The notes: generated by a model not told the origin, from the sequence alone. A DNA stretch of 64,000 bases from Microvenator marinus (GCF_007993755.1 NZ_CP042467.1:558001-622000); one strand, 5' to 3'. Shown: positions 8,302 to 54,822, counted from the stretch's first letter. Translations and numbers: made by a program.

Positions 8302-9043
8302 TTTTGTGCCGATTTTGCCATCTTTGCACTGCAAGGCTGACTTCAGGGTCCTGTGGATACGCCAGATTTAAGCCTGAAAGAATGTCTTCCAGGTCTAGAC
8401 TTGAAGCCACACTTGCGCGCTCACCCACGGTTGAAGGGGTCAATTCGTCGGCACGCCTAAACATCTCGCGCCGCGACCACGTTATGGTTTGGGAGCCCAA
8501 GACAAACGCCAATTCGTCCCAAAAGAGTGAGATGGGGTACCAAGACCGACCATCCGCTTGTTTTCTCATCTCAACTTGGTCAGGCACCACGCCACTTAGC
8601 GCAGGGTCGCGCAGCCTGAACGCCCATGCTTCCTCGTCCAGGGCAATGAAAACGGCTGCACGGCGTGATTCTTCGAGGCGAGAAAGCAAATGTTGGTGCG
8701 GTGTAGCCTCGGTATTTCCCACCATCGTACCAATCGCGACGACGAGGTCAGCATCAGGTAATGAAATCTCGCGAAAATCCCGTCTAATCAGCTCCGCATT
8801 CTCAAAATCCGTCCAGGGATGAGGGAAAGACTCCACGGCGATGTAGCGCCCTTGCCATCCACACGCGCGCAGATAACGTCCCAGGTGACCATCACCCGCC
8901 CCTAGATCAAGGAGAGACTCATGAGGCTTGATGAGATGGCGGACGACCTCGAACCGAATGTGCCTTTCGAGCGCATTTCGCCAACCCATCTTTCGCGCAG
9001 GCACCCCACTCAAGGATTCATAATAAGGTTCAGACAGTTTCAT
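8288..9043 (-). CDS. Class I SAM-dependent methyltransferase
   Basis: 251 residues. Motif I reads ESLLDLGAGDGHLGRYL (about 40-56), followed by an acidic residue at the end of strand 2 (YIAVESFP) and a motif-II-like DADLVVAIGTMVGNTEA, the normal order for a Rossmann-fold methyltransferase. The substrate is not evident. The ATG overlaps the end of the large kinase gene by 14 bp, so it is probably co-translated with it. The stop codon lies inside the metal-operon operator. Confidence 0.8.
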   Translation of the reverse strand: MKLSEPYYESLSGVPARKMGWRNALERHIRFEVVRHLIKPHESLLDLGAGDGHLGRYLRACGWQGRYIAVESFPHPWTDFENAELIRRDFREISLPDADLVVAIGTMVGNTEATPHQHLLSRLEESRRAAVFIALDEEAWAFRLRDPALSGVVPDQVEMRKQADGRSWYPISLFWDELAFVLGSQTITWSRREMFRRADELTPSTVGERASVASSLDLEDILSGLNLAYPQDPEVSLAVQRWQNRHKIRLA

Positions 9044-46153: not shown

Positions 46154-46248
46154 GAGAAAAGCCCTGAACTAGAAACATGTTCTAATTCAGGGCTTTATCG
46201 AGTGGAGCTGACGGGGCTCGAACCCGTGACCTCGTGACTGCCAGTCAA
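46154..46248. repeat. Left att repeat with displaced tRNA-Ala 3' fragment and terminator copy
   Basis: Direct copy of 54701-54795 with a single mismatch (46194 T versus 54741 C). Bases 46203-46248 correspond to nucleotides 28-73 of the minus-strand tRNA-Ala; 46154-46193 hold a duplicate of its hairpin terminator. The 5' part of the tRNA is missing, so this fragment cannot be functional. It marks the distal end of the integrated element, next to the integrase gene. Confidence 0.95.
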
Positions 46249-46352
46249 CGGGTATGGTCGGAATGCGCGAATAACCGACATCAAAGGGGCTTGCAATAAT
46301 GCGGGTTTAGTATCAGTCTAGATTCAATCGGCGTTAAAGATATTGACGTCGC

Positions 46353-46374
46353 TTTGCTACTAGATTGCTACTAT
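46353..46374 (+). repeat. Candidate integrase arm site (left copy)
   Basis: A 22-bp sequence containing two TTGCTACT-type units, matched at 19 of 22 positions by 54657-54678 near the other end in the same orientation. Paired repeats just inside both att cores are typical of arm-type binding sites for tyrosine integrases. It overlaps the first bases of the integrase gene, so it could also let Int repress itself. Inference. Confidence 0.5.
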
Positions 46375-47524
46375 GCCCAGATTGACCAAAACCTTGATTG
46401 AACGTGCGACATGCGACCCAGGTAAGCAGATCACGCTTTACATGGACTCACAGGTAAAAGCGTTTGGGGTGCGAGTCTACGCTTCAGGTTCGAAGTACTA
46501 CTTCATCAACCCGATGATTAACGGGCAACGCACGTACCGCCAGAAGCCAATCTACGAGTTCGCTACGGTCGAAGACGCGAGAGCTTGGGCGATCAATCTG
46601 CGGAGACGTCTTCGAGCTGGCGAGACCGCCGAAGAGATTGAGGCAGCTCCAAAACAGCAACTTCAAGCTCCAGAATTCTTCGAACTCTTCCTGAAGGAAT
46701 ACTCGGAGGTCATGAAGAAGTCTGCCGCAACCGATCGGCGCTATGTCAACAACTTCCTGATACCAGCATTCAAGCGCAAAAGGATTGAGAAGATCTCCGC
46801 AAACGACCTCCAAGAGCTCAGAAACAAGATCACTGCCGATGGCGGCCGAAAACATACCGCTAATCGAGTCAGGTCTCTCTTTCGCAAAGCATGGAAATGG
46901 GGACAGCAATATGGGCACATTGACGCTTCCCTTCCCGACCCGGCAAGGCACGTCGAGAAGTTCCGGGAGAAACCGCGTGACCGCTATCTGAAGGATGAAG
47001 AGATTGTAAGACTCTTTGATGAGCTCGAGCGTGAAGAGCCAGAACTCTATCTGGCTGTGGAGCTCGCTCTTGCGACTGGATGCAGAAAGATGGAGACCTT
47101 GGCGATGCAATGGAGTTGGATTGACTTCGGAGCCAAGACCACGATTCGAATTCCTGAAACCAAGAACGGAACGTCGCACCTGGTACCGCTCAACGAACGC
47201 GTGGCGGGCATGCTCCGAGACCGCAAGTCAGTATCCATTTCCCCTTACGTGTTTCCGGGAAGATTCGAAGACGACCACCGGAAGGACTTCAAGACCGCAT
47301 GGAAGCGAGTTCGTGATGCGGCAAAGATTCCCGATGTCCGTTGGCATGATCTCAGAAGAACCGTTGGGACTCGGATGGCTCAGAACGGAACCGACCTCTA
47401 TACCATCGCCAAGACCTTGAATCATAAGTCCCTCGCATCGACCCAGACCTATGCGAAGTTATCGACTGAAACGACTCGGGCAGCTCTGGAGAGCATCGAC
47501 CGCAAGAGAGGCAACGATGAATGA
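46373..47524 (+). CDS. int: Tyrosine-type site-specific integrase
   Basis: 383 residues. The N-terminal domain (about 5-75, DSQVKAFGVRVYASGSKYYF) resembles the arm-binding DUF4102-like domain of P4/phage integrases, then a core-binding SAM-like domain (about 95-190) and the catalytic domain. The catalytic set is R238 (ATGCRKME), H325 and R328 (WHDLRR), H351 (NHKS) and nucleophile Y360 (TQTYAKLS). It drives insertion and excision at the tRNA-Ala site. It is 124 bp inside the left repeat and overlaps the next gene by 8 bp. Confidence 0.97.
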   Translation: MPRLTKTLIERATCDPGKQITLYMDSQVKAFGVRVYASGSKYYFINPMINGQRTYRQKPIYEFATVEDARAWAINLRRRLRAGETAEEIEAAPKQQLQAPEFFELFLKEYSEVMKKSAATDRRYVNNFLIPAFKRKRIEKISANDLQELRNKITADGGRKHTANRVRSLFRKAWKWGQQYGHIDASLPDPARHVEKFREKPRDRYLKDEEIVRLFDELEREEPELYLAVELALATGCRKMETLAMQWSWIDFGAKTTIRIPETKNGTSHLVPLNERVAGMLRDRKSVSISPYVFPGRFEDDHRKDFKTAWKRVRDAAKIPDVRWHDLRRTVGTRMAQNGTDLYTIAKTLNHKSLASTQTYAKLSTETTRAALESIDRKRGNDE

Positions 47525-48164
47525 AGTTGCTCTCAGAAAGGCCTACGACTTCTTCATCTACAGTTACCAGCTGGAGGTTGAAAGGAGTCTTGCTATTGAC
47601 TTCAGGCGTGAGGAGGTCGAAGCCCTAGAACGCATCTGCAAAGCGGTGGATGACATTGAGACCAAGACTAGGAAGCGGGATCGGGACCGGGCATGGAATC
47701 GTTTCTACAAGGCGCTTGATGCCGACTATCCCCAGATTAAACGCTTCAAGCATGACTTCGAAACGGTCAAGAAATGGAACCCGGAAGCTCAGTGTTTTGA
47801 AGAAGTGCCCAAGTTGGCAAACGCGCTTAGCACACGAGCCTGTATTCGTGCTCATTTGAGTCTTGGGAGTGTCACGATCGGCAGACCGGAAGAGCCATTG
47901 CGGGAGACTGTGGCCTACCTTGTGGCAGCAGAATTGCGCTGGGGTGAGCCTGGAACACTTGCGGAGATCTACCAGCGAATTCAAGCGCGCCTTCCAGAAC
48001 ATGTCACCACAGAGACGATCAGAAAGGCGCATGAAAAGTTCATGGAGAACATTCTAACCGATGACTTCGAGCGGGAAGACTACCCGGACCTCGAAGACAT
48101 GCTCGCACCGCCCTGGGAGAAGATGGGCATGACACATGAGGATTGGATGAGACGCATGCACTGA
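47517..48164 (+). CDS. Unknown protein coupled to integrase
   Basis: 215 residues, MNEVALRKAYDFFIYSYQLEVERSLAIDF at the start, mostly helical and charged, with a C-terminal acidic tail. Overlap of 8 bp with int (ATG inside its last codons) argues for translational coupling and for this start rather than an upstream one at 47451. No known family recognised. Partnership with the recombinase, for instance as a directionality or accessory factor, is only suggested by position. Confidence 0.72.
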   Translation: MNEVALRKAYDFFIYSYQLEVERSLAIDFRREEVEALERICKAVDDIETKTRKRDRDRAWNRFYKALDADYPQIKRFKHDFETVKKWNPEAQCFEEVPKLANALSTRACIRAHLSLGSVTIGRPEEPLRETVAYLVAAELRWGEPGTLAEIYQRIQARLPEHVTTETIRKAHEKFMENILTDDFEREDYPDLEDMLAPPWEKMGMTHEDWMRRMH

Positions 48165-48304
48165 CAAGAAAAGCGAAGAGCCCGACGCGCCAACGTCGAG
48201 CCCTTCAATGTGTTTAACTGGGTTGAGACCCAGCGCCCCACAGGAACCCGCATTATAGCGGTACGGGCGTCAAGATCTCAACCCCAAAACCCAAAGGGGT
48301 TATT
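48165..48304 (+). other. Structured gap after the integrase pair
   Basis: 140 bp holding short inverted repeats: TGGGTTGAGACCCAG-like hairpin near 48220, CCCGCATTATAGCGGTACGGG near 48250, and CCCC...GGGG just before the next ATG. None has a clear U-run, so a classical terminator is not evident. These may limit transcription into the next genes. Confidence 0.35.
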
Positions 48305-48490
48305 ATGAGGAAGATCGAAGATGTTCTGAACGATGATGCGCTTCCAATTCTATCTGGGGACATTGCAGACGGGCAAACGTTGCAACGTTTGATTGAGCAG
48401 AGCCTCAAGATGGATGCCCAAGAGTTCCACACCTGGGTGCAAGGTTACGCCGAAGTCTACTGCCAAGATTCAACCATAAAGACGCTCTAA
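48305..48490 (+). CDS. Small unknown protein (61 aa)
   Basis: 61 residues, acidic, predicted helical, beginning MRKIEDVLNDDALPIL. AAGGGG stands 6 bases before ATG, a good ribosome site, which supports it as a real gene. No motif recognised. It precedes the excisionase-like gene by 112 bp. Confidence 0.55.
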   Translation: MRKIEDVLNDDALPILSGDIADGQTLQRLIEQSLKMDAQEFHTWVQGYAEVYCQDSTIKTL

Positions 48491-48602
48491 GCCTCTATTC
48501 ATGCGGCTCAGGCTGACAACGTCCCAAAACAGGATACTTGTTTCCGTTGTGGCGCGCCCAAAAGCTGGTGAATCTGCGTGAGTGTAGACAAAGGAGAAAC
48601 CC

Positions 48603-48812
48603 ATGAACATGAAGTTAGTTGACACCAATACCCTTTCGAAGATGTTCCCGGCGATCAAGGCGTCGTCCTGGGTGAGCATGCGCCACCGTGGAGTTGGGCC
48701 GCGATTCGTCAAGCTCGGGAACCGAGTCTTTTACGATATCGATGATGTTGAGGCGTGGTTCGAATCAAACAAGGTCTCTTCCACCGCCGAAGCAGCGAAC
48801 AGAAATCACTAA
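48603..48812 (+). CDS. AlpA/excisionase-like DNA-binding protein
   Basis: 69 residues with a winged-helix/HTH_17 pattern: LVDTNTLSKMFPAIK then SMRHRGVGPRFVKLGNRVFY and DIDDVEAWFESNK. This R-G-x-GP-x-x-x-K-x-G-x-x-V-x-Y-x-x-x-D-x-x-x-W signature is common to AlpA and Xis proteins of prophages and satellites, which bend DNA for excision or activate satellite genes. AAAGGAG precedes ATG by 7 bases. Confidence 0.85.
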   Translation: MNMKLVDTNTLSKMFPAIKASSWVSMRHRGVGPRFVKLGNRVFYDIDDVEAWFESNKVSSTAEAANRNH

Positions 48813-48830
48813 CCCAAGAAACACGAAAAG

Positions 48831-48850
48831 CCCGGCGGCAACCGGGCTAA
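48831..48850. terminator. GC-rich hairpin upstream of the primase gene
   Basis: A perfect 7-bp stem AGCCCGG/CCGGGCT with a 6-base loop. On the minus strand it is followed by TTTCGTGTTT, so it best suits a minus-strand terminator; on the plus strand no U-run follows. It lies between the excisionase-like and primase genes. Confidence 0.45.
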
Positions 48851-48924
48851 ACGCGTCGTCAAGTACAGACAGGAAACGCTCCCAAGAGTCTGCACTTGAT
48901 GACCCTAAATGTCAAGGAGTGCAA

Positions 48925-50205
48925 ATGGACTTATCAGAGAAAGCTCGAAGGGAATACGGGGAGATGGAAGACTATCTTCGCTCCAAAGGCGTCGAGCTCA
49001 ATCGTAGTGGGATGGCATGTTGCCCGTTCCATGATGACAAGAACCCTTCATTCAGCGTCAAGGATGACCGCTGGACATGCTGGGCCGGATGCGGCAACGG
49101 GGGCTTGATTGACCTTGTGGCGAAGTTCGAAGGTCGGGAGCCGCGCGAGATATGCTCGGAGCTTGGGAAGAAGTACCCTTCGGAGGGGCTACGAAAGAAC
49201 TCTAAGAAGTCTGGGTCCAAGCAAACGCCGAAGCCAAAGGCCCAGGCTCCAACACCGAAGCCGAAACCGAAGCCTGAAAAGCTAGACCACCCACACCAGA
49301 ACCACCCGCACTTTCGAGGCTGGCGCTCAACGCTTCTGTCACGAATGCTCGATTATGGGATTCCACTAACCGAGCCCTATCGTGGAATTCCCGCAGAATT
49401 GCTCCAAGGGCTTGTCTATGGTTTCACGGCCGAGGATTGGGACAAGGCACGCCGCGCAGTGATTCGAGATCTTAGACGCTACGTTCCGTTTGATATCCAG
49501 CCCCTGATTCCAGAAGCATATCGAATTGCAAACAAGGTTGGGGATACATGGCATCGCTACCAAAGGTTTCTCGTGTTTCCCTATTGGGACACTCAGTATC
49601 ACTTCCACCCGCTAACCGGGAATGAGGAGCCGTGGGAATGCTTCTATGACCCTTCTGACGAAGAAGAGAAGCGGCAATACGAGTACAGAACGCCCTATGA
49701 CCCAGAATCCTCGTGGCGAGTGCGCGGGCTTGTAGAGCTCCGATTCAGGAACGCCACCGAAGGCGCTCCCAAACAGGCACGCTACACACAGACCAAGCTG
49801 TTTGGGGCAACACGGATTCCCTATCTTTCGAACCCCGTACTACTCCGACTTGCGACCCAAGACGTGGAAGCTCACAAGCACACGCTCTATGTGTGTGAAG
49901 GGGAATGGGACACGTTGAGCGTATGGGCAAGGGGCAGGGTCGCAATCGGCATTCCGGGTACATCTTCGTGGAATGATGGGTGGTGTAAGCACTGGAATCG
50001 GTGCGGAAACGTGGTGGTCCTGAGTGACCCAGACAATGCCGGGGACGAACTCTGGCAACGAATTGTAGCCGCGTGCGTGAAGACTCATGGCCCACGTTGG
50101 ACACGCAAAAGACTAAGGCGCCAGTTCAACGAAGCTGGCGACATCAACGAATTACTACAAAGGTACCAAGACGGCACCGACTCAGAGGGAAACACTCATG
50201 GATGA
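48925..50205 (+). CDS. DNA primase with CHC2 zinc finger and TOPRIM-like domain
   Basis: 426 residues. A CHC2 zinc finger is formed by C33, H36, C52 and C56 (MACCPFHDDKNPSFS ... WTCWAGCG). A Lys/Pro-rich linker (about 92-120) follows. A TOPRIM-like domain has the catalytic Glu in YVCEGEWDT (near 324) and DPD in LSDPDNAGDE (near 368). It would make primers for the element's own replication. AAGGAG 7 bases before ATG 48925 fixes the start; an upstream frame to 48688 has no similarity. It overlaps the ATPase gene by 8 bp. Confidence 0.93.
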   Translation: MDLSEKARREYGEMEDYLRSKGVELNRSGMACCPFHDDKNPSFSVKDDRWTCWAGCGNGGLIDLVAKFEGREPREICSELGKKYPSEGLRKNSKKSGSKQTPKPKAQAPTPKPKPKPEKLDHPHQNHPHFRGWRSTLLSRMLDYGIPLTEPYRGIPAELLQGLVYGFTAEDWDKARRAVIRDLRRYVPFDIQPLIPEAYRIANKVGDTWHRYQRFLVFPYWDTQYHFHPLTGNEEPWECFYDPSDEEEKRQYEYRTPYDPESSWRVRGLVELRFRNATEGAPKQARYTQTKLFGATRIPYLSNPVLLRLATQDVEAHKHTLYVCEGEWDTLSVWARGRVAIGIPGTSSWNDGWCKHWNRCGNVVVLSDPDNAGDELWQRIVAACVKTHGPRWTRKRLRRQFNEAGDINELLQRYQDGTDSEGNTHG

Positions 50206-51826
50206 TATTTTCAAAGGCATGAATACCCAGCTACCTAATGTTGACGATGTCGAAAAGCCGCCCCTTAAACCCAACAATAGGCCGCTGAAGAAGAGACCTA
50301 GGGTGAGGTTGGATGAGGACAGAGGTGATGCATTAGATAAGGCCAACGTGATACTTAAAGCTCTTCGGGAGCATGCCGACTATCGCTTTTATGTGAATGA
50401 AGACACCAACGGAATTGTGCAAATCAATGGCCGCGATGTAATCGCAATGGACCATGTGACAAAGTTCCAACACCGTATTCAGCAAGAGATGGTCCTTTAC
50501 TATCCTGTGGAGGAGGGAGAGAAATTGTGGAACGTGCCACCTAAGGATGCCGTGCAATCGCTCATCGAGCGTGAGGAGTGGCCATATCTACGCAAACTGA
50601 AACGAATCGCGAGATTTCCGATTTTTGTCGGGGAAGATTTCGAGCTCTTTGACCGCGAGGGTTACGACCCTGCCTCAGGGACTTACGGCATGGAAGGAAT
50701 GTTGAAAGTAAAGGACATGACTCTTGAAGAAGCGAAAGACATCCTCATTAACAAGCTCCTGCGAGATGATGGCGGGCCAGGACTTGACCCAGAAGATCCT
50801 CCAGGATTTCCATTTGTGGACGAGTCTGACTTGGCAAATGCAATCGGTATGGCATTGACACCACTAGTTCTTCCAGCCATCCGAGACCGGAACGACAATG
50901 CTTGTGTTCCAGTATTTATGATAGATGCATCCACTCAAGGCACAGGTAAAACGATCCTAGCAGAGTCCTTGTTGACACCGGAGCTCCGCAACGTGTCGAT
51001 TCCAAAAACGGAGGAGGAGTTCCAAAAGGCGCTGGGGTCAATCATTGGTACGAAACGTGATGTGCTCTTCTTCGACAACATCTTAGACGGAGCGACATTT
51101 GGCTATCCAACACTCGCGGCAATGACAACCCAAGCCGGACGCGCTTCAATGCGCAGGCTCGGAGTAAATCAAATGATAGAGGGTCGTTTTTCAGGAATCA
51201 TAATCGCCACTGGCAACAACCTACAAGTTGATGCCGATGCGCGTAGACGCACGATGTTGATTCAACTTCATTCCTCTCTGGAGAATCCCGACCAGCGCGT
51301 TTGTAAGACCGATCCAAAGTCCTATGCTAAAAAGAACCGGTCCCTCATTCACTCTGCCTTGATAGAGCTTGTTAAGAACTGGAAGGTCAAAGGCTGTCCT
51401 AGCGGTTCGATTGTCATGGGTTCGTTTGGCGAGTTCACAAGAGTTGTTGGCGGAATACTTGATGCGGCTGGTATTCCCGGATTCGCTGGCAACACTGATC
51501 GATTGAGGGAGCGGGTTGACGACGGAGGTTGGACAGACTTCACTGCCGCGATCGGAGCAGAGTTCGAAGCGAAGCGGCTCGATCTGGAGGGCGTGACAGC
51601 TCGAAACCTTGTGAAGTATTGTGAGGAAAATGATATCGACCTTCCCGCGCGACTCGCAAGTGGCAACGGCGCCGATAGGTCTTTCGGGCGGCAGGTTAAA
51701 CAATACATCAGGGGGCCGAAAAACATGGGCGGATGGATGTGGGAGTTCATAGGTTCCCCAGCATCTAAACGGTCAGCATATCGCGTCCGTCGTTATCAGG
51801 CTCCGTTGGCTCGTGAAGAAGATTGA
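50198..51826 (+). CDS. AAA-type ATPase, probable replicative helicase
   Basis: 542 residues. Walker A-like STQGTGKT (near 248-252), Walker B VLFFDN (near 290) and a later IIATGNNLQVDADARRR (about 335-351) supply a sensor Asn and arginine fingers, the arrangement of hexameric AAA/superfamily-III helicases in phages and plasmids. The first 230 residues have no recognised domain. The 8-bp overlap with the primase gene and position next to the iteron array suggest the pair acts as initiator, primase and helicase. Exact family not identified. Confidence 0.82.
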   Translation: MDDIFKGMNTQLPNVDDVEKPPLKPNNRPLKKRPRVRLDEDRGDALDKANVILKALREHADYRFYVNEDTNGIVQINGRDVIAMDHVTKFQHRIQQEMVLYYPVEEGEKLWNVPPKDAVQSLIEREEWPYLRKLKRIARFPIFVGEDFELFDREGYDPASGTYGMEGMLKVKDMTLEEAKDILINKLLRDDGGPGLDPEDPPGFPFVDESDLANAIGMALTPLVLPAIRDRNDNACVPVFMIDASTQGTGKTILAESLLTPELRNVSIPKTEEEFQKALGSIIGTKRDVLFFDNILDGATFGYPTLAAMTTQAGRASMRRLGVNQMIEGRFSGIIIATGNNLQVDADARRRTMLIQLHSSLENPDQRVCKTDPKSYAKKNRSLIHSALIELVKNWKVKGCPSGSIVMGSFGEFTRVVGGILDAAGIPGFAGNTDRLRERVDDGGWTDFTAAIGAEFEAKRLDLEGVTARNLVKYCEENDIDLPARLASGNGADRSFGRQVKQYIRGPKNMGGWMWEFIGSPASKRSAYRVRRYQAPLAREED

Positions 51827-51837
51827 AATTCCCGCGG

Positions 51838-52080
51838 GTAACCAAAGAAAAAACCCGCAAAACCCGCATAACAACCTCAAACCCTTAGTATTGCTAGGGA
51901 GCAGAGATGCGGGTTTTATTTTCAAGACCCGCAATGTCCCGCAATGTCCCGCATGAGTTGTAGATGTTTGCGGGTTATGCGGGGACGCATGCGGGTTAGC
52001 GGCTCAAAACCCGCAGCATGTTTCCCTCTTTTTTCAATGACTTGTGAACATCCTGCGGGTTATGCGGGTTATTTTGCGGA
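51838..52080. repeat. Iteron array, putative replication origin of the element
   Basis: About twelve copies of the heptamer TGCGGGT (or one-base variants) on both strands: as ACCCGCA/TCCCGCA at 51853, 51862, 51927, 51937, 51947, 52009 and as TGCGGGT/TGCGGGG at 51908, 51969, 51978, 51990, 52054, 52063, with a partial at 52075. Several lie 9-10 bp apart, one helical turn. A T-rich stretch (52021-52045) lies between clusters and could unwind. It directly follows primase and ATPase genes, as in P4-type origins. The function is inference. Confidence 0.7.
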
Positions 52081-52224
52081 TCTTCTACACACGCGCACGC
52101 ACACCCGGGGTCTCATTCATTAGCAAACGAAAGGGGCTACACGGCAGGGCTGTTCGAAAGATGCACGTCATTTTCATTTTTGATACAATCTGAGCCGTAG
52201 ACTTGAAACACCGAGGCTCTCAGA
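52081..52224. other. Non-coding spacer before the TerS-like gene
   Basis: Contains a GT/CA-alternating stretch (acacgcgcacgcacac-like, near 52090) and a TACAAT -10-like hexamer near 52184, which may serve the next gene; no matching -35 is clear. No ORF or repeat. Confidence 0.4.
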
Positions 52225-52671
52225 ATGGGCAAGCAACGCACGAAGAAGAAACACGCATTCCTCACACACTACAAGCAACATGGAAGTGTGACACGAGCCG
52301 CAGAAGCGGCAGGTTATGCGCAACCCGGACCTTGTTACAGGTATCTCAAGACCGGAGATGATGGCGAGTATCTGGACCCTATTGTCCGGAGCATGCTCGG
52401 AACACCCGAGCCTGAAGAGCCGGAGCAAGTGACACTACCGTCCAACGTACTGAAGCTGGTCCCGAAAGCAGACCGCGAAGTCACGCCAACGATTGAAGGT
52501 GTGCAAGCGTTGCTCTGGAGTATCGCCAACGACCAACTCACGGCAGCGGGGCCGCGTGTCCAGGCAGCGAGCATTCTACTCAAAGACCTAAGAGAGACGG
52601 TGGAAGAAGAGTACGAATCACCAGAAGATATTGTTGAAGACATTCGTCGTGCTCTTTACGTCCCGCGCTAA
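52225..52671 (+). CDS. Terminase-small-subunit-like DNA-binding protein
   Basis: 148 residues. The N-terminus KKKHAFLTHYKQHGSVTRAAEAAGY with GPCYRYLKTGDD is a helix-turn-helix of the kind found in phage terminase small subunits, where it recognises the packaging site. The C-terminal part is helical and acidic (QAASILLKDLRETVEEEYESPEDI). GAGG lies 8 bases before ATG. No terminase large subunit is in the element, as in PICI satellites that redirect a helper phage's terminase. It could instead be another HTH protein. Confidence 0.6.
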   Translation: MGKQRTKKKHAFLTHYKQHGSVTRAAEAAGYAQPGPCYRYLKTGDDGEYLDPIVRSMLGTPEPEEPEQVTLPSNVLKLVPKADREVTPTIEGVQALLWSIANDQLTAAGPRVQAASILLKDLRETVEEEYESPEDIVEDIRRALYVPR

Positions 52672-52722
52672 TCGCCAAAAATACATAAACTTTCGCCAAA
52701 TTATTGGTAAACAGGGGTAAAC
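52672..52722 (+). promoter_or_regulatory. Direct-repeat operator-like region
   Basis: Two TCGCCAAA copies (52672-52679 and 52693-52700) lie exactly 21 bp apart, and two GGTAAAC copies (52706-52712 and 52716-52722) lie 10 bp apart, all on the same strand and spaced by whole helical turns. They stand upstream of the RHH-like gene, so autoregulation by that protein is likely. TTATGATT at 52739 could be the -10 of its promoter. Confidence 0.5.
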
Positions 52723-52752
52723 CCACGATCTGCGGTCTGTTATGATTCACTC

Positions 52753-53148
52753 ATGACAAGGCAGAAATACATCCAACTTGAGTTCTCAGAGACCGACCGC
52801 GCATTTCTTCGAAGGTTGCGCATCGCAATGGGTGTGAAAACCAACTCGAAGGCAATCCGCGCGCTAATCAAAGAAGCGGACGCCCAAGAGCGCATTGAGC
52901 CCGTCACCATTCCGACCATTGTCACCGTTAGCCTTCCAGCGCGCACCGCCGAAATTCATCGCACTACATGCGTTCTGAGCGACCATGACATGGTTCGACT
53001 TCGAACTCTTCAAGTAAAACTCGGATGCACAACCCGGATGGCGACCATTCGCCAACTTATCTGGGACGCATTCCTATACCTAATCGAGGGACCCAGAGAT
53101 GAGCAAAGCAACCAAAGCTCAAGAGAGACAACGCGACGCGTTGCTTAG
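52753..53148 (+). CDS. Tandem ribbon-helix-helix-like DNA-binding protein
   Basis: 131 residues with an internal duplication. Residues 5-45 (YIQLEFSETDRAFLRRLRIAMGVKTNSKAIRALIKEA) and about 74-115 (CVLSDHDMVRLRTLQVKLGCTTRMATIRQLIWDAF) each show a beta strand and two helices like RHH (Arc/MetJ-type) units. A single chain would thus supply both halves of a DNA-binding dimer. No clear ribosome site is seen. Candidate repressor of the downstream block. Confidence 0.6.
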   Translation: MTRQKYIQLEFSETDRAFLRRLRIAMGVKTNSKAIRALIKEADAQERIEPVTIPTIVTVSLPARTAEIHRTTCVLSDHDMVRLRTLQVKLGCTTRMATIRQLIWDAFLYLIEGPRDEQSNQSSRETTRRVA

Positions 53149-53734
53149 AGAGATTGTAGCGTTTCCCGGACAAAGGGAGCGCGATTATGGAGCGCCACCA
53201 GAGGACATTGATCCTATTGGAGCGTTTACCGCCGACGTGGTGATCTTCCATCGTGGAGTCATCGCATGGGACGACGAAGGGCGTTGTGTACGCCTCAGCT
53301 TGGAGAATCCGAGCTTCGAGACCGAGCCGGGTAGCAACTGCCTTCGACTATGCGCCAAAGACCTACCTGGGCGAATTGGAGCGCATACCATGCGCGGACA
53401 ATCCGACCTTCTGATGGTTTGGCTTGAAGACGGGCGTTGCTACGTCACCGACCTTCTACTTCCAGAAATGCCATTCCACCGACGCCACGCATGGGATCTG
53501 AGCTTAGAGCAGGCAGAATCGAACCTTGCCGAACTCGAAGCAATCCGAGTCCGGAAAGACAAGGCCGAGAAAGACAGGCGACTTCTGAGAGCCGAACAAC
53601 TCCGCGAATCTGCAAGGCTCGCTGAGCTCGAAGCCAAACTTGAGGCTGAAACTGTATTGACCGAGCAACAGGCGCTTGAAGCGCGCTTGAAGACTCTTGA
53701 AACCTTGAAGGTGAAACATGAAGAACACGACTGA
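53099..53734 (+). CDS. Unknown protein with C-terminal coiled coil
   Basis: 211 residues. A globular N-terminal domain (about 1-135, containing GRCVRLSLENPSFET and GRCYVTDLLLPEM) precedes a long charged coiled coil (about 140-211, rich in LEAELK-type heptads). It overlaps the RHH-like gene by 50 bp and the next gene by 17 bp. No homologous family recognised. Confidence 0.65.
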   Translation: MSKATKAQERQRDALLREIVAFPGQRERDYGAPPEDIDPIGAFTADVVIFHRGVIAWDDEGRCVRLSLENPSFETEPGSNCLRLCAKDLPGRIGAHTMRGQSDLLMVWLEDGRCYVTDLLLPEMPFHRRHAWDLSLEQAESNLAELEAIRVRKDKAEKDRRLLRAEQLRESARLAELEAKLEAETVLTEQQALEARLKTLETLKVKHEEHD

Positions 53735-53939
53735 CAAACAACTCTTGAGGCGCGCCACGGCTGTTCACCGGGACATGCTCAAACAGGCCGAGAAATTCGG
53801 TGTAAGCGCTTCTCAGTACGACGTAACGAAGCTGCTCCACACAAGCGAAAGCGGCAAGGTGAAGGTGTTGATTGACGCCACAGAGCGTCTCGCGATTGCC
53901 ATCGCCAAACGTCGCCGGATTATCATTTGCGAGAAGTGA
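53718..53939 (+). CDS. Small basic unknown protein (73 aa)
   Basis: 73 residues, basic, helical (MKNTTDKQLLRRATAVHRDM), ending KRRRIIICEK. AAGGTG lies 6 bases before ATG inside the previous gene, so translation is coupled. A DNA- or RNA-binding role is possible from its charge but not shown. Confidence 0.6.
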   Translation: MKNTTDKQLLRRATAVHRDMLKQAEKFGVSASQYDVTKLLHTSESGKVKVLIDATERLAIAIAKRRRIIICEK

Positions 53940-53941
53940 TG

Positions 53942-54031
53942 CGCGAAGGGGTTTGCCATATCCCCCTTGGACCCAGAGCCTGCCTGGTGCGCATCTGGTA
54001 GGCCGCTTGCCCGTGAGCGACACCACACGGG
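53942..54031 (+). other. Two hairpins between unknown genes
   Basis: AAGGGG/CCCCTT (53946-53951 with 53963-53968) and CCCGTG/CACGGG (54010-54015 with 54026-54031), the latter with a 10-base loop, in a 107-bp gap. They could be a structured leader, processing site or part of a packaging or regulatory RNA. No U-run follows. Confidence 0.35.
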
Positions 54032-54046
54032 AACTTTTGCGAGCTG

Positions 54047-54286
54047 ATGATGGAATGCACTTACAAGCAAATCTTCAACTTGAACCATATCGCATGTTGG
54101 TTTGTCGAGCATAACGCACACGAAACAAGGCTACTCGCCGACGGCGTGTTGGTGCTCAAGTGTTCTAGCTTACAGGCAGCTCAAAAAGAACTAGGTCGTG
54201 TCTACACTGCCATAGGGTCAGGCTTACGAGCCGCGGCCATTGTGGAGCTAGAACACTCAAACGAACTCCATCTTGTGTTTTACTAG
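54047..54286 (+). CDS. Small unknown protein (79 aa)
   Basis: 79 residues beginning MMECTYKQIFNLNHIACWF, with alternating hydrophobic strands and no membrane segment. No strong ribosome site. It is followed 3 bp later by the last gene of the element. Function unknown. Confidence 0.5.
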   Translation: MMECTYKQIFNLNHIACWFVEHNAHETRLLADGVLVLKCSSLQAAQKELGRVYTAIGSGLRAAAIVELEHSNELHLVFY

Positions 54287-54289
54287 CAA

Positions 54290-54640
54290 ATGAAGCCACC
54301 CGAGCATGTCATTCTGATAGGCCGAAAGCTGATAGCCTATGACGGCTCTAACGCCTACGTAGCGCAACTCTACTTCAAACACGGCGCTTTGCTTCTCTCT
54401 TGCCCAGAAACGCAATGGGAGCCGTCACCAGCGCATGACCTGAGCGCCGATTGTGCGAAGCTCGTGCAGCTCGGAGAAGGCGCGCTAGCCTATGACACAC
54501 AAGGGACCGCGTACCACGTTGGGAGCGAAGAGGCTCGCGTTTGCGCGCATCTTGAATGGAATCCGGTGTTATCCCGAGCAAGGGCCGAGAACCAAAACAG
54601 GGAGTACCTGGACACGCTCAGGGCGAAGTTTGCGAAGTAG
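54290..54640 (+). CDS. Unknown protein (116 aa), last gene of element
   Basis: 116 residues, beta-rich N-terminal part (VILIGRKLIAYDGSNAYVAQLYFKHGALLLSC) and a charged helical C-terminus. It sits 3 bp after the preceding gene and 16 bp before the right arm-like repeat. Cargo of satellites is often placed at this end, so it may be an accessory function; nothing identifies it. Confidence 0.55.
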   Translation: MKPPEHVILIGRKLIAYDGSNAYVAQLYFKHGALLLSCPETQWEPSPAHDLSADCAKLVQLGEGALAYDTQGTAYHVGSEEARVCAHLEWNPVLSRARAENQNREYLDTLRAKFAK

Positions 54641-54656
54641 AAAAATCGGTGCCTAT

Positions 54657-54678
54657 TTTGCTACCAATTTGCTACTAT
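54657..54678 (+). repeat. Candidate integrase arm site (right copy)
   Basis: Matches 46353-46374 at 19 of 22 positions in the same orientation (TTGCTAC ... TTGCTACTAT). It is 22 bp inside the right core repeat. See the left copy. Confidence 0.5.
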
Positions 54679-54700
54679 TCAGACCGCTTGCGCCAAGAAA

Positions 54701-54740
54701 GAGAAAAGCCCTGAACTAGAAACATGTTCTAATTCAGGGC
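54701..54740 (-). terminator. Rho-independent terminator of tRNA-Ala
   Basis: On the minus strand GCCCTGAA pairs with TTCAGGGC, with inner TAGAA/TTCTA pairs around a short loop, followed by TTTTCTCTTT. It lies 9 bases after the tRNA 3' end. The same structure is duplicated at 46154-46193. Confidence 0.8.
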
Positions 54741-54795
54741 CTTATCGAGTGGAGCTGACGGGGCTCGAACCCGTGACCTCGTGACTGCCAGTCAA
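54701..54795. repeat. Right att repeat within the intact tRNA-Ala gene
   Basis: Second copy of the 95-bp direct repeat. It comprises nucleotides 28-73 of the tRNA (54750-54795) and 49 bp downstream of it with the terminator. Recombination between the copies would leave one full tRNA and an 8547-bp circle. Confidence 0.95.
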
Positions 54796-54822
54796 GCGCT
54801 CTCCCAGCTGAGCTACAGCCCC
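54750..54822 (-). tRNA. tRNA-Ala (GGC anticodon)
   Basis: The cloverleaf folds on the minus strand: acceptor GGGGCTG/CAGCTCC with the G3:U70 pair that identifies alanine tRNAs, D-arm GCTC AGCTGGGA GAGC, anticodon loop CTGGCAG with GGC, T-arm ACGGG TTCGAGC CCCGT and discriminator A. CCA is not encoded. One anticodon-stem pair, U28-C42, is mismatched. The 3' part comes from the att repeat, so the gene remains functional after integration. Confidence 0.96.

Follow-up and report, generated by a model that had tools for sequence, protein, structure and literature searches.

What kind of mobile element occupies the tRNA-Ala(ggc) gene of Microvenator marinus, and by what means does it spread? The question is raised by E1, a segment at positions 46154-54795 of the window (the whole stretch of 64,000 nucleotides that was analysed, to which all coordinates refer unless another stretch is named), for which an earlier note had proposed a new lineage of phage satellite. 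When the ATPase of E1 was searched against the chromosome of the host (a single contig of 5.85 Mb), a second locus appeared at 68% identity, and with it a sister element, E2, in a stretch of the same chromosome designated L007. As read from their sequences, the two elements are characterised by flanking repeats at tRNA genes, a kept gene order, purifying selection, an iteron origin, an antisense-RNA-like gene and a lack of structural or transfer genes. E1 and E2 are best explained as belonging to a new family of small integrative elements, spreading most likely as helper-dependent phage satellites, a reading that is held here with middling confidence. E2, the conserved iteron layout and the predicted antisense RNA are new relative to the earlier description of E1.

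Two elements at two tRNA genes

E1 lies between the 95-bp direct repeats that the earlier note had reported (attL, 46154-46248; attR, 54701-54795; no strand assigned), which are 99% identical, are spaced 8,547 bp apart and can be extended to 98 bp at 98% identity. The left repeat duplicates the 3' end of tRNA-Ala together with its terminator, and the right repeat overlaps the 3' 47 nt of the tRNA-Ala(ggc) gene itself, which is intact and forms the right border of the element (54749-54822, minus strand). The E2 repeats (68 bp at 94% identity, or about 100 bp at 89%) are spaced 8,804 bp apart at tRNA-Pro(tgg), and the att pairs of both elements are intact. E1 combines the features that define a tyrosine-integrase integrative element, namely an integrase, an excisionase-type protein and att repeats at the 3' end of a tRNA gene that is left intact. 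On sequence grounds, it is a real, self-contained integrative mobile element with replication genes of its own, a conclusion that is better supported than it was from E1 alone because the same chromosome carries a second, related full-length element bordered by a tRNA gene of its own.

The gene order of E2 is that of E1: integrase, second open reading frame (ORF), 139-aa protein, AlpA-type protein, primase, ATPase, origin, TerS-like protein, ribbon-helix-helix (RHH) protein, and proteins of 211, 73 and 116 aa. Eight genes are syntenic at 46-74% amino-acid identity (mostly 66-74%), while only 210 of 528 fourfold-degenerate sites (40%) are identical, a value near saturation, and because the proteins are conserved to this extent while the fourfold sites are not, the common genes are judged to be under selection, functional and long diverged. 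The integrases are only 22% identical, and the second ORF and a 79-aa slot are occupied by unrelated sequences, which suggests that the integrase and these two slots have been exchanged.

Four of the genes listed in the earlier note (integrase, AlpA-type regulator, CHC2/TOPRIM primase and ATPase) are backed by Pfam and PHROGs matches. The tyrosine integrase (383 aa, 46373-47524) matches PF00589 at E 4.4e-29 and phrog_1 at E 7e-68, and the AlpA/Xis-type helix-turn-helix (HTH) protein (69 aa, 48603-48812) matches both HTH_17 and phrog_66 at E 5e-4, its E2 counterpart reaching E 1e-9 with phrog_66. The CHC2 zinc finger/TOPRIM primase (426 aa, 48925-50205), which has 74% aligned identity to that of E2, matches PF01807 (E 5e-9) and PF13155 (Toprim_2; E 2e-5). 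The DUF5906-like replicative helicase ATPase (542 aa, 50198-51826) is 66% identical to its E2 counterpart; its match to PF19263 (E 0.005) fails the Pfam cut-off, and phrog_10537 at E 2e-33 supports the assignment. In the linker of the E2 primase (L007 8181-8315), a 27-bp tandem repeat encodes proline-rich units; this repeat is absent from E1. All protein genes of E1 lie on the plus strand, as had been noted earlier, but the description of the element as one-stranded does not extend to the predicted antisense RNA discussed below, which lies opposite at 48168-48281.

The origin (51852-52070, no strand assigned) consists of 12 TGCGGG(TT) iterons in both orientations and has a conserved layout in E2. 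The array first seen in E1 is real: a 284-bp stretch has 12 copies of TGCGGG where shuffled sequence gives 0.4, and eight of TGCGGGTT where it gives 0.02, with all ten copies of TGCGGGTT in the window falling within E1. In E2, 12 copies of TGCGGG are found in 371 bp, against 0.34 expected, and the orientation and spacing of the iterons run nearly parallel in the two elements (two copies 9 bp apart, one lone copy in inverted orientation, three spaced by 10 bp and three by 9-12 bp), while the bases flanking the core are unlike (mostly TT in E1; AGTT or TCTTTT in E2).

Satellite or integrative plasmid

The satellite reading is favoured in part because the core of integrase, AlpA (PF12728) and DUF5906 protein is the gene core of the phage-inducible chromosomal minimalist islands (PICMI) of Vibrionaceae, which combine an integrase, AlpA (PF05930/PF12728) and a DUF3987/DUF5906 primase in a type element of 6.1 kb inserted at fis, and whose DNA is packaged as a concatemer in unmodified helper particles (PMC10803314). 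On this reading, a phage signal would derepress the element, AlpA and the integrase would release it as a circle of some 8.5 kb, and the primase and helicase would replicate this circle from the iteron origin. The TerS-like protein, or else some site in the DNA, might then steer the terminase of a helper to package the element, probably as a concatemer. An antisense RNA encoded across from the leader of the 61/139-aa gene, with a promoter that overlaps an iteron, would hold the element silent or control its copy number.

E1 and E2 share with PICMI their small size, the core of integrase, AlpA (here via PF12728) and DUF5906-type primase-helicase, and the lack of capsid-remodelling genes; they differ in their sites (tRNA-Ala and tRNA-Pro instead of fis), in their length of 8.5-8.8 kb and in possessing a separate CHC2/TOPRIM primase, an iteron origin, a TerS-like protein and the predicted antisense RNA. 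Phage-inducible chromosomal islands (PICIs) are recognised by a conserved gene organisation, the absence of structural and lytic genes, a size of about 12-15 kb, PICI-exclusive orthologues, and phage-dependent induction and packaging (PMC6092414). The PICIs of Gram-negative bacteria resemble E1 and E2 in having an integrase, an AlpA master regulator, replication genes, an origin and a TerS-like gene in that order, without structural or lytic genes; however, at 8,547 and 8,804 bp E1 and E2 are below the PICI range, and no PICI-specific gene was recognised in them, without direct comparison to the PICI gene set. P4-like satellites (PMC8628076) likewise have an integrase, an AlpA-type protein, and primase and helicase functions, but in E1 and E2 the last two are separate proteins and the RNA is predicted on the other strand, and Pfam, PHROGs and NCBIfam scans gave no match to P4 psu, sid or delta. 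In the same scans no relaxase, type IV secretion system (T4SS) or FtsK/TraB-type transfer gene, as would be expected of integrative and conjugative, integrative and mobilizable, or actinomycete integrative and conjugative elements, was matched in E1 or E2. E1 and E2 thus fall short on defining tests of each of the P4, PICI and PICMI groups; they appear to function most like PICMI or PICIs and are, by the tests made, members of neither.

The earlier note had also stated that E1 lacks capsid, tail, lysis, relaxase and T4SS genes, and indeed neither these families nor portal proteins matched any ORF tested, save for sub-threshold TerS and coiled-coil matches; nor does E2, as a full-length relative, carry structural phage or conjugation genes, whose presence in such a relative the note had named as grounds for refutation. 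What the note had inferred beyond this, a lineage in need of a helper phage, stands as to the integrative element, whereas the need for a helper can only be inferred, with no terminase, portal or cos/pac partner found and a TerS homology that is not significant. The TerS-like HTH protein (148 aa, 52225-52671; 73% identical to that of E2) is a weak assignment: the E1 protein resembles phrog_4044 (terminase small subunit) at E 0.012 over 37 residues, and its E2 homologue gave no such match.

Several observations weigh against a satellite. The TerS similarity, short of significance in E1, is absent from the E2 copy, and the structure model of the protein is too poor for use (two-row alignment, pLDDT 48.5); neither this protein nor the 211-aa protein has a relative in 379 sampled Myxococcota genomes (the host's own apart), viral contigs, phages or plasmids. 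No cos or pac site was identified in E1 or E2, the evidence for an antisense RNA comes from two sequences only, and a replication module comparable to theirs is present in the integrative plasmid pCM32. Of the three families searched, the host genome contains no portal (PF04860), no TerL_ATPase (PF03354) and no true phrog_2 terminase, the single phrog_2 match being a RecD-like 674-aa ORF beside RecBC-type genes. Resident helpers are excluded only for these three classes. In fact, PICMI satellites exploit virulent phages (PMC10803314), and for this reason the lack of a resident helper does not refute a satellite.

The main rival, somewhat less probable but to be taken seriously, is that E1 and E2 are integrative, iteron-controlled cryptic plasmids or mobilizable elements with antisense RNA copy control, which would spread passively (by transformation or generalized transduction) or be mobilized at an oriT-like site by the conjugation machinery of another element. 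Antisense RNA together with iterons is typical of plasmid copy control, which counts in favour of this view, as does the module of primase, DUF5906-like ATPase, HTH protein and integrase, whose genes are consecutive in pCM32 (Saccharopolyspora endophytica) as well; distant relatives of the ATPase occur on small plasmids, and no helper phage was found. However, pCM32 has a Zot-domain protein and a prim-pol, both of which E1 and E2 lack, and relaxase, FtsK/TraB, partition and toxin-antitoxin genes are found in neither element. Also in disagreement with a plasmid are the AlpA protein and the TerS-like HTH protein 3' of the origin, which accord with satellite gene order, and the absence of any DNA-level match among 72,556 plasmids.

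The predicted antisense RNA

The stretch best conserved between E1 and E2 is noncoding (48197-48337, 94% identity, versus 40% at fourfold-degenerate coding sites) and overlaps a predicted antisense RNA of about 78 nt, ctRNA1 (48168-48245, minus strand), which would comprise a 5' stem, a 7-bp hairpin with a CUCA loop and a terminator hairpin (48207-48174). Its putative promoter (48252-48281, minus strand) reads TTGAGA and TATAAT at a spacing of 18 and scores 11/12, and the 15-bp terminator hairpin falls within about 80 nt of it. A copy of TGCGGGTT starts at the last T of the TATAAT box in E1 and likewise in E2, and one further copy is situated near attL of E1. A scan for such promoter-terminator units, with a promoter of at least 10/12, returned exactly two in 143 kb of chromosome, the ctRNA1 units of E1 and E2, while 60 shuffled versions of the element gave none. 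The RNA folds alike in both (z-scores of -5.5 and -4.9), and in the terminator four of the five variable pairs still pair, two of them after changes on both sides and the other two as G-U pairs that only the minus strand allows, although counts of covariation drawn from two sequences have no statistical force. Through base pairing to the 61/139-aa gene leader, ctRNA1 would silence the element or set its copy number, and because it is nearly identical in E1 and E2 it should act across the two. Immunity in P4 is likewise RNA-based. The 61-aa ORF itself (48305-48490, plus strand) matches the 139-aa protein of E2 (L007 7049-7468) at both ends, corresponding to approximately its first 10 and last 52 residues, with some 77 internal residues lost in frame.

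The conserved block as a whole (48168-48337) might instead be a recombination tract, or a DNA operator or packaging site, an explanation that concerns this one part and is compatible with a satellite or a plasmid alike. Its identity of 94%, well above the remainder of the elements, inverted repeats to which a protein could bind, and the fact that just two sequences are known would all suit such a site, but the terminator arms vary between E1 and E2 with their pairing kept (including the G-U pairs particular to the minus strand), the minus strand folds better than the plus strand, and an 11/12 promoter stands at the right distance from a terminator in both elements and in no shuffle; this explanation is regarded as unlikely. 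In searches elsewhere with ctRNA1, a 28-mer had no match, a 19-mer match in a viral contig falls within an unrelated prophage ORF, and covariance-model matches in other genomes (28-38 bits versus 104-109 for E1 and E2) are regarded as chance hairpins. A second conserved noncoding block (48817-48900, 85-93%, no strand assigned), upstream of the primase gene, contains a long hairpin and a minus-strand terminator (48848-48829) with an unconvincing promoter and is possibly a second antisense RNA or an operator.

Relatives and minor features

That E1 and E2 are decayed prophages, stripped of structural genes and retaining integration and replication only, is very improbable in spite of their phage-type integrase, primase and helicase and their small size, because decay would not arrive twice at the same outcome, and the same gene set and order recur in two long-diverged copies under strong selection, with synonymous sites near-saturated and each att pair intact. 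As complete but diverged copies on the same chromosome, E1 and E2 can be compared directly to locate the functional core, origin and control RNA of such an element, and to study how related satellites share a host cell. In the full-text library searched, no paper mentions Myxococcota together with 'phage satellite'.

The earlier guess of a myxobacterium-like host is compatible with Myxococcota, in which the ATPase family is wider than the pair itself, matches being found in 53 of 379 genomes. One of the 18 ATPase neighbourhoods read contains a complete minimal element, in another Myxococcota genome (L134 6155-12188; G229:C141), which measures 5,977 bp, is flanked at tRNA-Thr(cgt) by perfect repeats of 57 bp and encodes an integrase, AlpA, a DUF5906-like ATPase, an Xre-type repressor and small ORFs. 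This element resembles E1 and E2 in having integrase, AlpA and DUF5906-like ATPase between tRNA repeats, and the core is taken to be a mobile module in Myxococcota for that reason; it differs in its distant ATPase (phmmer E 2e-17) and in its repressor, and the CHC2 primase, TerS-like and 211-aa genes were not detected in it. So far, the CHC2 primase, the antisense RNA and the block of TerS-like, RHH, 211-aa and 73-aa genes appear to be private to E1 and E2. Scans with the primase gave partial similarity only, mostly to the CHC2 zinc finger, and a tblastn match of the TerS-like protein in a faecal phage contig is a chance match to RecA.

The remaining plus-strand genes of E1 include a 215-aa ORF that overlaps the end of the integrase gene (47517-48164) and is replaced in E2 by an unrelated ORF of 192 aa. 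Downstream of the TerS-like gene follow a tandem RHH-like protein (131 aa, 52753-53148; 50% identical to E2), called by inspection of two RHH-like repeats, and a 211-aa protein (53099-53734; 71% identical) with a predicted coiled-coil C-terminus, whose model has a helix at residues 136-210 (pLDDT about 80-90) and an overall pLDDT of 51.9 (two-row alignment), too low, as in the TerS-like model, to support a fold search. A 73-aa protein (53718-53939; 74% identical) is followed by a third conserved noncoding block (53967-54031, plus strand; 86%; counterpart at L007 12959-13033), with a hairpin and a terminator-like end, by the variable slot, held by a 79-aa ORF (54047-54286) in E1 and an unrelated 77-aa ORF in E2, and by a 116-aa protein (54290-54640; 46% identical). 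The tRNA was the sole match in an Rfam scan, defence genes were sought with PADLOC without a convincing match (best E 0.023), and the gene flanking E1 on the left has no relative among 57 other genomes searched. At a further locus (L113 5941-9689; G025:C69), which is possibly another integrative element, an integrase and an 840-aa DUF5906-family protein adjoin tRNA-Ala(cgc), with no second border within the stretch examined.

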